A stretch of 36,329 bases of DNA from Acidimicrobiia bacterium (GTDB lineage: Bacteria > Actinomycetota > Acidimicrobiia > IMCC26256 > JAENVU01), in contig JANYJV010000046.1 in the NCBI GenBank assembly GCA_025361725.1, forward strand, positions 1 through 36,329. Reading direction: 5' to 3'. The notes below the pieces were generated by a model. The model saw only the letters and a list, made by a program, of their open reading frames with translations. It did no database searches and was not told the origin of the DNA. A program made the translations under genes and the position numbers. This document shows positions 2,336-6,092 of this stretch, piece after piece (within the stretch, counting starts at the first letter, position 1; each line of letters starts with the position of its first letter).

Positions 2336-3199
2336 TCAGGCGAGAGACTCGACGCGTGGCGGCTCGACCGGCCGGGGTGAGCCAGCGGCGAAGAGCAGCC
2401 CGCGGGCGAAGAGGAACAGCGTCGGGACGAGGTACGCCCACCAGACAAAAACCTCGAGCACCGTGGGGTTCGGCGAGAAGTTGAAGACACCCTTGAGAAG
2501 CGTGCCGTACCAACTGGAGGCCGTGTACCACGACGTGATGTCCCACGCGCTGGCGCGACCGAAGTTCACGATCCCGGCCTCCCCGAGATCGTGGATTCCG
2601 TACGCCAACACACCCGCAGCCACGACGATCAACGCCAAACCGGTCCAGGTGAAGAACTTGGCGAGGTCGATCGCCACCGCGCGGCGGTAGATCAGGTAAC
2701 CGAGCAACACCGCGGCGCCGAGACCGAGCACCGCACCAATCAACGGTTGCGCGCTGGAGCCGGCGGCCTGCGCATTGGTCCAGAGGAACAACGCCGTCTC
2801 GAGACCTTCGCGGGCTACGGCGACGAAGGCGGTCAGGACCAAGGCGCTGGTGCCCATGGCGAGCGCGGCGTCGACGCGGCTCTGGAGCTCCGACTTCATC
2901 GACTTGGCCGCTCGCCGCATCCAGAAGACCATCCAGGTGACGAAGCCGACTGCGATGATCGACATGAAGCCAGCGAAGGCCTCTTGAGCCTTGAAACTCA
3001 GGCTCTGAGACGTGAACGTGAGCACCGCGCCGAACGCGAGGCTGATCGCGACGGCGGCGACGACGCCGGTCCAAATCGGGACGAGCGAGTCTCGACGCCC
3101 GATCTTGACCAGGTACGCCACCAGGATGCCGACGACGAGCGCCGCTTCAAGTCCCTCACGAAGACCGATCAGGAAGTTTGAGAACACGAAGCACACCAT
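2336..3199 (-). CDS. efeU: FTR1-family high-affinity iron permease (EfeU-like)
   Basis: Integral membrane iron permease of 287 residues with about seven hydrophobic segments. Two REGLE motifs are visible, REGLEAALVVG near residue 15 and REGLETALFLW near residue 130; these glutamates bind ferric iron during transport in FTR1/EfeU. The ATG at 3199 starts just eight bases from an iron-box-like operator. No good ribosome site precedes it, so the N-terminus could also start a few codons in. It appears to form a two-gene operon with the cupredoxin lipoprotein. With the adjacent DtxR-like gene this makes a compact, self-regulated iron uptake module. Confidence 0.94.
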   Translation of the reverse strand: MVCFVFSNFLIGLREGLEAALVVGILVAYLVKIGRRDSLVPIWTGVVAAVAISLAFGAVLTFTSQSLSFKAQEAFAGFMSIIAVGFVTWMVFWMRRAAKSMKSELQSRVDAALAMGTSALVLTAFVAVAREGLETALFLWTNAQAAGSSAQPLIGAVLGLGAAVLLGYLIYRRAVAIDLAKFFTWTGLALIVVAAGVLAYGIHDLGEAGIVNFGRASAWDITSWYTASSWYGTLLKGVFNFSPNPTVLEVFVWWAYLVPTLFLFARGLLFAAGSPRPVEPPRVESLA

Positions 3200-3262: not shown

Positions 3263-3538
3263 TCAGCCGCCCGCGACCGCAGGAACGATGCTGACGACCT
3301 CGCCGTCGGCCACCGGGGTCCCGAGACCGTCGAGAAAGCGGATGTCTTCGTCGGCCACGAACACATTGACGAAACGGCGGAGTTCACCGTCATCGCCGAA
3401 CAGGCGTCCCCGGAATCCGGGGTGGGTCGCGTCGAGCGCGGCCAAAACCTCGGTGAGCGATCCCGACTCGAGCGCGACTTCGGCGTTGCCGCCGGACAGT
3501 TCACGAAGTTGGGTCGGGATACGAACAGTCACAGTCAT
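3263..3538 (-). CDS. cysO: CysO-like ubiquitin-fold sulfur carrier protein (MoaD/ThiS family)
   Basis: A 91-residue beta-grasp protein ending in Gly-Gly, the C-terminus that is adenylated and converted to a thiocarboxylate in sulfur carriers. The second half, from RFVNVFVADEDIRF to the end VPAVAGG, closely resembles mycobacterial CysO (as I recall, RFVNIYVNDEDVRF and LPAVAGG), more than MoaD or ThiS. The ATG at 3538 has AAGGA six bases upstream. It follows the threonine synthase-like gene by 29 bases, so both probably share the SAM riboswitch leader. CysO normally feeds sulfur to CysM for cysteine synthesis, but neither cysM nor the Mec protease gene is in the window. A carrier role is well supported; the acceptor enzyme is unknown. 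Confidence 0.9.
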   Translation of the reverse strand: MTVTVRIPTQLRELSGGNAEVALESGSLTEVLAALDATHPGFRGRLFGDDGELRRFVNVFVADEDIRFLDGLGTPVADGEVVSIVPAVAGG

Positions 3539-3567
3539 GAATGGTCCTTCTTGGGCGAGGGCCTCGC

Positions 3568-4809
3568 TCATGCGAGCAGGTCCTGCGAGTCGAACGCGGC
3601 GTGGAACGCGTCGAGGGTAGGGGAAATGGATGCCGTCGGACCCACGTGGTCCACCACTGCGTCCAGTGTCTTCAGGCCGTGGCCGGTGATGTACGCCACC
3701 ACCCGCTCGTCCGGGCGGATCGTGCCGTCGGCGGCGAGCCGTTTCAGCGTGGCGATCGTGACCCCACCCGCGGTCTCGGCGAAGATGCCTTCGGTCTCGG
3801 CGAGCAGGCGCATGGCGTCGACGATCTCGTCGTCGGTCACCGCCGCGAACCCGCCGCCAGTCTGGCGCACCGCATCGAGGGCGAAGTATCCGTCGGCCGG
3901 GTTGCCGATCGCGAGTGATTTCGCGATCGTGTCGGGCTTCACGGGTTTGATCGTGTCCGACTCGTTTAGCCACGCGGCGGCGACGGGTGAACACCCCAAG
4001 GCCTGCGAGCCACTGACGCGCACCTGGGGCTCGTCGTCGAGCAGACCCACTTGGTACAACTCGTTGAAGCCCTTCCGGATCTTCGTGAGCAACGAGCCGC
4101 TGGCCACCGGCACCACCACGTGATCGGGCGTCTGCCACCCGAGCTGCTCCGCGGTCTCGTACGCCAAGGTCTTGGAACCCTCGGCGTAGAACGTACGCAG
4201 GTTCACGTTCACGAACGCCCACGGGTACATGCCGGCGAGCTCCGCGCACAGGCGGTTGACGTCGTCGTAGTTGCCGTCGATGGCGACGACGTTGCCGCCG
4301 TACACCGCCGTCGTGACGATCTTGCCCTGCTCGAGGTTGGCGGGGACGAACACGAAGGACCGCAACCCCGCGTGCGCCGCGTGCGCGGCGACGGAGTTCG
4401 CGAGGTTGCCGGTCGACGCGCAGGCCGCAACCTTGAAGCCGAACTCAAGCGCCTTGCTGAGCGCGACCACCGAGACGCGGTCCTTGAAGGAGTTCGTCGG
4501 GTTCATGGTGTCGTTCTTGATCCAGAGCTCACCGAGACCGAGCTGTGCCGCCAGCCGATCCGCACGCACCAACGGCGTGAAGCCGGCACCGAGATCCACC
4601 GCCGGGTTGTGCTCGACCGGCAACAGGTCCTGGTACCGCCAGATGCTCAGCGGCCCGGCAGCGATCTTCTCGCGGCTGACCGAGCTGCGAATGGCGTCGT
4701 AGTCGTAGGTGACCTCGAGTGGGCCGAAGCACCACTCGCAGGTGAAGATCGGGGCGACGTCGTATTCGCGCCCGCACTCTCGACAGCGCAAAGACTGCAC
4801 GTGGGTCAT
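3568..4809 (-). CDS. thrC: Threonine synthase (PLP fold type II), SAM-riboswitch controlled
   Basis: A 413-residue PLP enzyme of the threonine synthase family, which converts O-phosphohomoserine to threonine and phosphate. It starts with a zinc-ribbon-like segment (CRECG, CEWC). The PLP-lysine motif is NPTNSFKDRV near residue 118 and the phosphate-binding region includes ACASTGNLANS. The ATG at 4809 is fixed by an AGGAG eight bases upstream; a longer upstream reading frame would run through the riboswitch and is not real. A CysO-like sulfur carrier gene follows by 29 bases. SAM-riboswitch control is unexpected for plain threonine synthesis and hints at a link with methionine or homocysteine; this is inference. 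The family assignment is firm, the exact reaction less so. Confidence 0.93.
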   Translation of the reverse strand: MTHVQSLRCRECGREYDVAPIFTCEWCFGPLEVTYDYDAIRSSVSREKIAAGPLSIWRYQDLLPVEHNPAVDLGAGFTPLVRADRLAAQLGLGELWIKNDTMNPTNSFKDRVSVVALSKALEFGFKVAACASTGNLANSVAAHAAHAGLRSFVFVPANLEQGKIVTTAVYGGNVVAIDGNYDDVNRLCAELAGMYPWAFVNVNLRTFYAEGSKTLAYETAEQLGWQTPDHVVVPVASGSLLTKIRKGFNELYQVGLLDDEPQVRVSGSQALGCSPVAAAWLNESDTIKPVKPDTIAKSLAIGNPADGYFALDAVRQTGGGFAAVTDDEIVDAMRLLAETEGIFAETAGGVTIATLKRLAADGTIRPDERVVAYITGHGLKTLDAVVDHVGPTASISPTLDAFHAAFDSQDLLA

Positions 4810-4817
4810 GTCTCGTT

Positions 4818-4942
4818 CTCCTGATATCCAGGAGCGCCTCTCGACGCTCGTTGCTCGGCGCGCTCTGGCTCGGACCTTTCGGTCCTCGGTTCGAGCGCCT
4901 TCCGAGCGGGTGATCCAACGTGCGATGCACCCACGCTCCTGG
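4818..4942 (-). promoter_or_regulatory. Riboswitch expression platform with Shine-Dalgarno-sequestering hairpin
   Basis: On the minus strand CTCCTG (4834-4829) can pair with CAGGAG (4823-4818), hiding the thrC ribosome site in a hairpin with a five-base loop. The left arm is part of CGCTCCTGG (4836-4828), which can instead pair with CCAGGAGCG (4942-4934) just after the aptamer, freeing the site. The two pairings exclude each other, as expected of a translational switch. A GGACC-GAAA-GGTCC hairpin lies between them. There is no U-run. Which state SAM favours cannot be read from sequence. Confidence 0.7.
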
Positions 4943-4947
4943 GCTCT

Positions 4948-5052
4948 CTCATCGTTCGGGCATTGGCACCTGGCTCCCCTCGCTTCTCTCGAAGCGGGGT
5001 TCGCTGGTTGCCGCGGCGTCAACGGGCCCGTCCCTCAGCCGCTCTGGATGAG
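4948..5052 (-). ncRNA. SAM-I (S-box) riboswitch aptamer upstream of thrC-cysO
   Basis: The minus strand shows the hallmark SAM-I core: CTCATCCAGAGCGGCTGAG, GGACGGGCCCGTTGACGCC, then GCGGCAACC. P1 pairs CTCATC (5052-5047) with GATGAG (4953-4948). A P3 stem is visible (GCTTC-GAGA-GAAGC flanked by CCCC/GGGG), followed by the P4 element GGTGCCAATGCC. The kink-turn and the SAM-binding core are intact. The layout fits SAM-I rather than the actinobacterial SAM-IV class. Confidence 0.93.
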
Positions 5053-5066
5053 CGCGTGAAGGGACC

Positions 5067-5097
5067 AGTGTAGACCGACCCTCTTCGCTGGTCGCAA
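5067..5097 (-). promoter_or_regulatory. Putative promoter of the riboswitch-thrC-cysO transcript
   Basis: TACACT (5072-5067) as -10 and TTGCGA (5097-5092) as a weak -35, with a 19-base spacer. Transcription would start a few bases before the riboswitch P1 stem at 5052, which fits well. Confidence 0.5.
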
Positions 5098-5141: not shown

Positions 5142-6092
5142 GTGGCGACGCCCCCCGCCCTCGCGCCGGTTCCGATCTGCTCCGAGGATTTCGATGTGCT
5201 CGATCTCCTCCGCCTGAAAGAAGAGCGCGGGCTCACGGTCTCGGTGTGCCTGCCGGCACGGGACGAAGAGGCCACTGTCGGCCAGATCGTGGCCATGGTG
5301 CGGCGCACCCTGGTGGAGGCCGTGCCACTCGTCGACGAAGTCGTGGTCATGGACGACGGCTCACTGGACTCGACCGCGGAGGTCGCGGCCTGGGAGGGCG
5401 CGCGCGTGGTCGCCGTCGACGATATCCTGCCCGAAACCGGAGCCGGGAGTGGCAAGGGCAACGCGATGTGGAAGTCCCTGCACGCGACGACCGGCGACCT
5501 CGTGTGCTGGGTCGATGCGGACATCCGCAACTTCGGTCATCACTTCATCAGCGGGCTGCTCGGACCGCTGATCACCGACCCTGACATCGCGTTCGTCAAG
5601 GGCTACTACCGCCGTCCGCTCCACGGTGAACCGACTGGAGGCGGACGGGTCACCGAACTCGTTGCCCGCCCGCTGCTCTCCGTGCTGTTCCCGGAACTCG
5701 CCGGCTTCATCCAACCGTTGAGTGGAGAGTATGCCGGCCGCCGCTCGTTGCTTGAGCAGGTGCCGTTCGTCGAAGGGTGGGGCGTCGAGATCGGATTGCT
5801 GGTGGACATCGTGCGCAGCGTCGGACTCGGCGGCACCGCGCAGGTGGACCTGGGCGTCCGGGAACATCGCAACCGTCCGCTCGACGACCTCGGCCCGCAG
5901 GCGACGGCGATCCTCGTCACCGCGCTCCGGCGGGCCGGTCTCATCAGCGGTGACGCAGCGGCCGGTGACCACGCGACACTGACGCGTTTCACCGAGGCGT
6001 TCGAGCCGACGGCGGTATCCGTCGAGGTTCGAGAACGTCCGCCGATCGCCACCGTGCGCGCGTATCGCGCCGCGTTCGGACTCGACACCTGA
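5142..6092 (+). CDS. gpgS: Glucosyl-3-phosphoglycerate synthase (GT81 family)
   Basis: GT-A glycosyltransferase of 316 residues that transfers glucose from a nucleotide sugar to 3-phosphoglycerate. This is the first step of glucosylglycerate, and in mycobacteria of methylglucose lipopolysaccharide, synthesis. Visible motifs are VCLPARDEEATVG, the donor-site MDDGSLDSTAE, the metal-binding VDADIRN (near residue 127), and the acceptor-loop PLSGEYAGRR. Its length is close to mycobacterial GpgS. It starts with GTG and has no ribosome site. A TACGCT hexamer ends eight bases before the start, so a leaderless transcript is possible. It is divergent from the riboswitch-thrC unit. No GPG phosphatase or hydrolase is obvious in the window. 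Confidence 0.95.
   Translation: MATPPALAPVPICSEDFDVLDLLRLKEERGLTVSVCLPARDEEATVGQIVAMVRRTLVEAVPLVDEVVVMDDGSLDSTAEVAAWEGARVVAVDDILPETGAGSGKGNAMWKSLHATTGDLVCWVDADIRNFGHHFISGLLGPLITDPDIAFVKGYYRRPLHGEPTGGGRVTELVARPLLSVLFPELAGFIQPLSGEYAGRRSLLEQVPFVEGWGVEIGLLVDIVRSVGLGGTAQVDLGVREHRNRPLDDLGPQATAILVTALRRAGLISGDAAAGDHATLTRFTEAFEPTAVSVEVRERPPIATVRAYRAAFGLDT

Follow-up and report, generated by a model that had tools for sequence, protein, structure and literature searches.

The window (the whole stretch of 36,329 nucleotides that was analysed) contains a short reverse-strand unit in which a riboswitch precedes two genes. An earlier note on this DNA had described a SAM-I aptamer, a ThrC-family PLP enzyme and a GlyGly carrier in a row, and all three were confirmed inside positions 3263-5097. 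The features are as follows.

4946..5054, (-) strand: SAM-I riboswitch aptamer (Rfam RF00162, 66.9 bits, model positions 1-108 of 108)
4810..4945, (-) strand: leader from the aptamer to metM, predicted to be the expression platform; AGGAG precedes the start codon, and a CTCCTG further upstream could pair with this AGGAG
3568..4809, (-) strand: metM-like gene (ATG at 4809) for a 413-aa PLP enzyme from the threonine synthase superfamily
3263..3538, (-) strand: metO-like gene (ATG at 3538) for a ThiS/MoaD-fold sulfur carrier, 91 aa, ending Ala-Gly-Gly

The aptamer matches RF00162 over its full length (E 1.2e-13; the Rfam gathering score is 44.4), and no other SAM-I match was found in the assembly to which the window belongs (3.53 Mb, 83.5% complete). 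The gap from the aptamer to the metM start is 136 nt and that between metM and metO is 29 nt. The window MetM matches Pfam PALP (248 bits) and the NCBIfam thrC model TIGR00260 (291.7 bits, cut-off 167.1), and it carries four N-terminal cysteines (9, 12, 24 and 27) ahead of the PLP domain. The window MetO matches Pfam ThiS (52.6 bits), and its last residues are PAVAGG.

The gene beside metM-metO encodes an EfeU/FTR1 iron permease (window 2336-3199, (-) strand), and genes for a cupredoxin-domain protein (1601-2287, (-) strand) and a DtxR-type iron-dependent repressor (879-1550, (+) strand) lie nearby. The divergent neighbour of the SAM-I leader encodes glucosyl-3-phosphoglycerate synthase (5142-6092; 374 bits, cut-off 262).

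Known counterparts and conservation of the unit

The earlier note had suggested that homocysteine is made here from phosphohomoserine with carrier-bound sulfur, and had taken this for an undescribed route. The undescribed status was ruled out, as Streptomyces is already reported to use it, under the name MetM-MetO (Hasebe et al. 2024, as cited in the available part of PMC12172450). Thus the bold idea of that note is published chemistry, and the window is a new example of it. In the work of Hasebe and colleagues, MetM is said to convert O-phosphohomoserine to homocysteine with thiocarboxylated MetO, and the emphasis is reportedly on strains lacking the canonical homocysteine genes, whereas the genome of the window has metY-metX. 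The available part of PMC12172450 describes MetM, after Hasebe et al. 2024, as a Streptomyces homocysteine synthase that has cyanobacterial homologues, places a SAM riboswitch upstream of metM in S. albulus and relates metO of that species to the carrier gene adjoining thrC in Microcystis. The ThrC-homologous enzyme, the adjacent carrier and the upstream SAM riboswitch are all common to S. albulus and the window, whose host belongs to another class of Actinomycetota. The S. albulus MetM is likened here by its description in that part of the source; a Nonomuraea relative is 57% identical to the window MetM. The Microcystis homologue, as described there, is 51.6% identical to S. albulus MetM. 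In vitro it made threonine and also deaminated it, and a peak close to that of methionine was left unassigned; methionine did not rise when the protein was induced, and the sulfur source in that study was sodium sulfide rather than a loaded carrier (available part of PMC12172450).

Carriers also feed other PLP enzymes. The genome of the window has a separate CysM-CysO-type cluster on contig C144 (L136:1414-3160), which comprises a CysM-like protein, a second GlyGly carrier and a JAB-like protein that matches a desampylase model below its cut-off. The CysO-like carrier of this cluster is 48% identical to the window MetO. CysM-CysO of Mycobacterium tuberculosis resembles the window pair in that a PLP enzyme is fed by a GlyGly carrier, but its product is cysteine, and the neighbour of the window carrier scores as ThrC. 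Another carrier-dependent homocysteine system reportedly has a MetY-type synthase, whereas the window enzyme is ThrC-like. In this same system, cited in PMC6225789, as far as the available part of that paper describes it, a carrier thiocarboxylate is the sulfur source for homocysteine, as is proposed for the window pair.

The conservation of the unit was followed in a sample of 100 genomes, that of the window included, in which metM was counted at 63% identity or more and was present in 62. In 60 of these 62 genomes a same-strand SAM-I precedes metM at a distance of less than 1 kb. In the remaining two, the gene starts at contig base 6 (G008) or the match is without the first 113 residues (G050). 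A ThiS-family gene lies less than 400 nt downstream of metM in at least 53 of the 62 genomes. A second set consisted of 80 named loci, the best 80 of 597, which were chosen by two peptide patterns outside the five signature positions described below. These come from Acidimicrobiia, other Actinomycetota, Chloroflexi, Nitrospirota, Nitrospinota, Omnitrophota, Acidobacteria, planctomycetes, Hydrogenobacter and a few archaea. Within these best 80 of 597, SAM-I was found upstream in 45 loci (within 500 nt in 44 of them) and a metO-type gene no more than 2.5 kb downstream in 60. The 20 loci of this set that lack a metO-type gene in that range include Micromonospora and Actinoplanes; two of the 20 stop no more than 2 bases past the match.

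Six loci (L191, L192, L195, L196, L197 and L200) consist of SAM-I and metM with no metO-type gene within 2.5 kb; they come from Actinoplanes, Pseudonocardiales, Micromonospora, Nucisporomicrobium and Asanoa.

Comparison of MetM with canonical threonine synthase

The genome of the window has a canonical thrC (354 aa) immediately 3' of hom on contig C92, and its product is 40% identical to the window MetM. A second ThrC-like gene is also present in at least 57 of the 62 metM genomes. A tree was built from 97 proteins: 74 metM-like proteins, 11 canonical ThrC and 12 other relatives. The 74 comprise 63 of the 80 named loci (17 redundant or partial ones were omitted), 10 other metM and the window; S. 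albulus MetM and Microcystis ThrC are not part of the tree. All 74 metM-like proteins form one clade (support 0.997), and all 11 canonical ThrC stand apart from it (support 0.995).

Five positions separate the two groups in this sample. L136, N203, R205, Y208 and G349 are found in 74 of 74 metM-like proteins, and T, S, N, R and A are found there in 11 of 11 ThrC. The first four align to T88, S155, N157 and R160 of Thermus thermophilus ThrC (1uim), some of which presumably hold the substrate phosphate in ThrC; the literature search returned no paper on the role of these residues in T. thermophilus ThrC. The catalytic lysine, K109, is retained in all 74. The window MetM shares the fold family and the catalytic lysine with canonical ThrC (TIGR00260; T. 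thermophilus 1uim) but differs from it in the extra N-terminal four-cysteine segment, the changed signature residues and the separate clade. The window enzyme passes TIGR00260, yet this model does not split the MetM and ThrC clades. The residues and tree position of the window enzyme set it apart from the housekeeping threonine synthase, whose gene is the one next to hom (homoserine dehydrogenase).

A further ThrC-like clade was seen in loci L112, L113, L114, L115 and L116 (5 of 5 together, support 0.999). Its members are about 40% identical to MetM, and the signature positions hold residues particular to this clade. In two of the genomes concerned, G072 and G099, no metM, metX, metY or metA was seen.

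Homocysteine routes and SAM-I across the genomes

The possibility that the genome of the window lacks other homocysteine genes was ruled out by a metY followed by metX, without SAM-I, on contigs C81 and C11 (C81:6791-8524 and C11:8155-8982; L008, L137). The metX gene is split, with its start at the end of C81 and the remainder on C11, and the two contigs share an overlapping stretch. The earlier note had counted against its own reading a complete separate homocysteine pathway in the genome together with an enzyme that forms only threonine; of the two, such a pathway is present. Because this genome also has metY-metX, metM-metO here is probably a second, SAM-gated homocysteine route. The note had further expected SAM-I, this enzyme and the carrier to occur together where metX and metY are absent. 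The first part of this expectation held, with SAM-I in 60 of 62 metM genomes and the carrier in at least 53; the absence of metX and metY was borne out in 27 of the 62 and contradicted in 35, among the matches listed.

By strong matches among those listed, 29 of the 62 metM genomes have both metX and metY, 6 have one only and 27 have neither. Completeness is at least 90% in 15 of these 27 (among the matches listed). The search of the 100 genomes found metA in four, none of them among the 62 with metM, and HcyBio in none. The MetY model, which matched in 14 of 14 control genomes, gave no match in 9 of the 27, weak matches only in 6 and moderate matches in 12. Since the moderate matches belong to the MetY/MetB superfamily, a trans-sulfuration enzyme may be present in those 12 genomes. 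Judged by sequence matches, metM is thus the sole strongly matched homocysteine route, of those searched, in 27 of the 62 metM genomes. SAM-I and metX were found on one contig in 3 of the 32 metM genomes with metX, more than 100 kb apart, among the matches listed. With SAM-I off the metX contigs or that far from the gene, none was seen at the metX route of the dual-route genomes. A member of the same genus as the host (G001) has metX and metY, and metM was not found in it. In addition, six genomes that are at least 90% complete (G058, G068, G072, G075, G078 and G099) show none of metM, metX, metY and metA, which indicates further unexplained cases in the class.

SAM-I was also found at 44 places that are not at metM, of which 24 were examined. 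In genomes without metM, 8 of the 12 examined places precede methionine genes:

L121, L122, L124: SAM-I, then metY-metX
L123 (489-1034), L128 (2031-2552): SAM-I, then an OsmC-family gene, then metY, in relatives without metM
L125: SAM-I, then metX with a Cys/Met PLP gene
L129: SAM-I, then metH (a partial read, below the model cut-off)
L130: SAM-I, then cystathionine gamma-synthase

No recognised methionine gene was found 3' of SAM-I at the remaining 4 of these 12 places, and the other 12 places examined, which are extra SAM-I sites in metM genomes, likewise precede no recognised methionine gene. In genomes that lack metM, SAM-I therefore tends to lie at homocysteine or methionine genes, and from gene context this is the strongest argument for the role of metM. 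SAM-I also has targets beyond methionine genes in the sampled genomes.

At six places, SAM-I above the gathering score precedes an open reading frame that has no Pfam match (L111:40-682, L132:1910-2558, L139:145-848, L117:187-997, L118:332-1282 and L120:1819-3068). The spacing is 6 to 12 nt, and 73 nt in L117. Cys pairs occur in the frames of L111, L132, L139 and L117, and all six frames count as SAM-I targets of this class.

Predicted role of MetM-MetO and its control

Several lines of evidence favour the MetM role, namely the separate thrC, the distinct clade and residues, the adjacency of SAM-I and the carrier, the 27 of 62 metM genomes with neither metX nor metY among the matches listed, and the published MetM-MetO counterpart. 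The reading of the earlier note in which homocysteine would be made from phosphohomoserine with carrier sulfur is the best supported of those considered and is probably right. Points that weigh against it are the metY-metX of the genome itself, metX or metY in 35 of the 62 metM genomes among the matches listed, the moderate MetY/MetB-superfamily matches in 12 of the other 27, the same-genus G001 with metX and metY but no metM found, the threonine made by the Microcystis homologue, the 20 of 80 named loci (best 80 of 597) with no metO-type gene in the 2.5 kb range, and the 12 extra SAM-I places at which no methionine gene was recognised. We are confident, if not certain, that the window contains a SAM-I-family leader before a MetM-MetO pair that likely makes homocysteine.

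It is unlikely that the window enzyme is a second threonine synthase, lowered by SAM so as to shift phosphohomoserine between threonine and methionine, with the carrier as a bystander. Such a role would agree with a score above the NCBIfam thrC cut-off and with the threonine made by the Microcystis homologue (available part of PMC12172450), but a canonical thrC already adjoins hom in the same genome, the five signature residues of all 11 ThrC are replaced in all 74 members of the clade, and the carrier gene is next to metM in at least 53 of 62 genomes. The tamer view in the earlier note, that SAM only tunes the flux between threonine and methionine, is likewise weakened by the separate hom-thrC and the changed active-site positions. 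The enzyme might also act as a bifunctional threonine synthase and deaminase that forms homocysteine in minor amounts or not at all, as the activities reported for the Microcystis homologue would suggest. We consider this very improbable for the window: a SAM-I before the gene fits methionine and not threonine breakdown, the Microcystis assay used sodium sulfide and not a loaded carrier (available part of PMC12172450), and the Microcystis protein is outside the tree sample.

The two other alternatives concern the carrier. MetM could make homocysteine from phosphohomoserine and free sulfide while MetO serves another pathway, and the 20 of 80 named loci (best 80 of 597) without a nearby metO, among which those of Micromonospora and Actinoplanes keep SAM-I, would fit this. 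The metO adjacency in 60 of the same 80 loci and in at least 53 of 62 relatives, together with the reported dependence of MetM on its carrier, makes a free-sulfide enzyme an even more improbable account. Least credible is a cysteine synthase pair like CysM-CysO. The 48% identity of MetO to the CysO-like protein of its own genome is the point in its favour, but that genome keeps a separate CysM-like/carrier/JAB-like cluster on C144, and the window enzyme scores as ThrC and not as CysM.

The homocysteine reading bears on organisms in which this step was missing. Price et al. 2018, in the available part of PMC5764234, list Aquifex aeolicus, Pyrolobus fumarii and Acidimicrobium ferrooxidans as having none of the homocysteine routes then known and call the missing methionine step undiscovered. 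Genome G069 of our sample is likely A. ferrooxidans DSM 10331, a species that grows autotrophically (available part of PMC3035218). SAM-I, metM and metO follow one another in this genome, which also has a separate ThrC-like gene; the searches for metX (best E 1.3e-5), metA and HcyBio gave no strong match. The best match of G069 to the MetY model (E 9.9e-26) falls well short of the metY rows and thus may be another Cys/Met-type PLP enzyme. A protein named as A. aeolicus (P0276) has all five clade residues and lies inside the clade in a tree with 79 of 79 members together (support 0.99). A clade member is therefore found in two of the three organisms named by Price et al. 2018, A. aeolicus and the likely A. 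ferrooxidans. The SAM-I-metM-metO unit of the latter likely fills the methionine step called undiscovered in 2018, and since its metM lies under SAM-I with an adjoining carrier, this gap is open to testing. More broadly, and with moderate confidence, we propose that MetM-MetO is the route missing in 2018 in A. ferrooxidans, Aquifex, Hydrogenobacter, Acidimicrobiia, Chloroflexi, Nitrospirota, Acidobacteria, planctomycetes and some archaea, and that in dual-route genomes SAM-I would gate the carrier-fed route, with none at MetX-MetY.

The chemistry of MetM-MetO is known from Streptomyces; the link to the organisms of 2018 and the dual-route arrangement raise the present case above a routine one. 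Among the literature matches listed, no paper ties MetM to A. ferrooxidans or Aquifex, and we make no claim that this link is new to the literature. Because annotation models name these genes threonine synthase, their owners can look like methionine auxotrophs or show an unexplained step; the five residues that distinguish the clade from ThrC in our sample could correct this annotation. With only one route under SAM-I, dual-route genomes also pose the question under which conditions a cell draws on carrier-bound sulfur rather than on sulfide.

In the proposed mechanism, the C-terminus of MetO could be loaded as a thiocarboxylate by the sole ThiF-family protein of the genome, a rhodanese-ThiF fusion (NCBIfam MoeB, 567.6 bits, cut-off 449). 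The ThrC-like MetM would then exchange the phosphate of O-phosphohomoserine for sulfur from thiocarboxylated MetO, and the homocysteine would be used by MetH, which is present as a partial read (1023.8 bits, cut-off 1010.9). The genome also encodes a betaine-homocysteine methyltransferase-like protein. When SAM is plentiful, the SAM-I leader would repress metM-metO. This repression is probably translational, since no intrinsic terminator-like site was found in the window leader; a run of five T was found in none of 30 leaders. In the A. ferrooxidans locus the Rfam SAM-I match reaches the likely start codon, and among the 45 named loci that have SAM-I (from the best 80 of 597) there are 5 with a gap of 6-8 nt from the end of the aptamer match to the coding match. 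An aptamer that abuts the coding start leaves no space for a terminator, so translation control is likelier in these cases. Folding of the window leader, whether free or with P1 forced, left most of the ribosome-binding motif paired, and no switch was apparent. The 30 leaders were also compared for a common hairpin that would hide the ribosome-binding site: a recognisable motif is present in 26 of them, with pairing of at least 0.7 in 12 and below 0.3 in one; the set of 30 includes three leaders (G025, G042 and G032) whose presumed start is not a start codon.

The C-termini of the carriers vary. In L143, L154, L158, L159, L164 and L193 the frame of the MetO-type carrier extends a few residues beyond GlyGly, so trimming would be needed before loading. 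Unlike these extended carriers, the window MetO ends at GlyGly.
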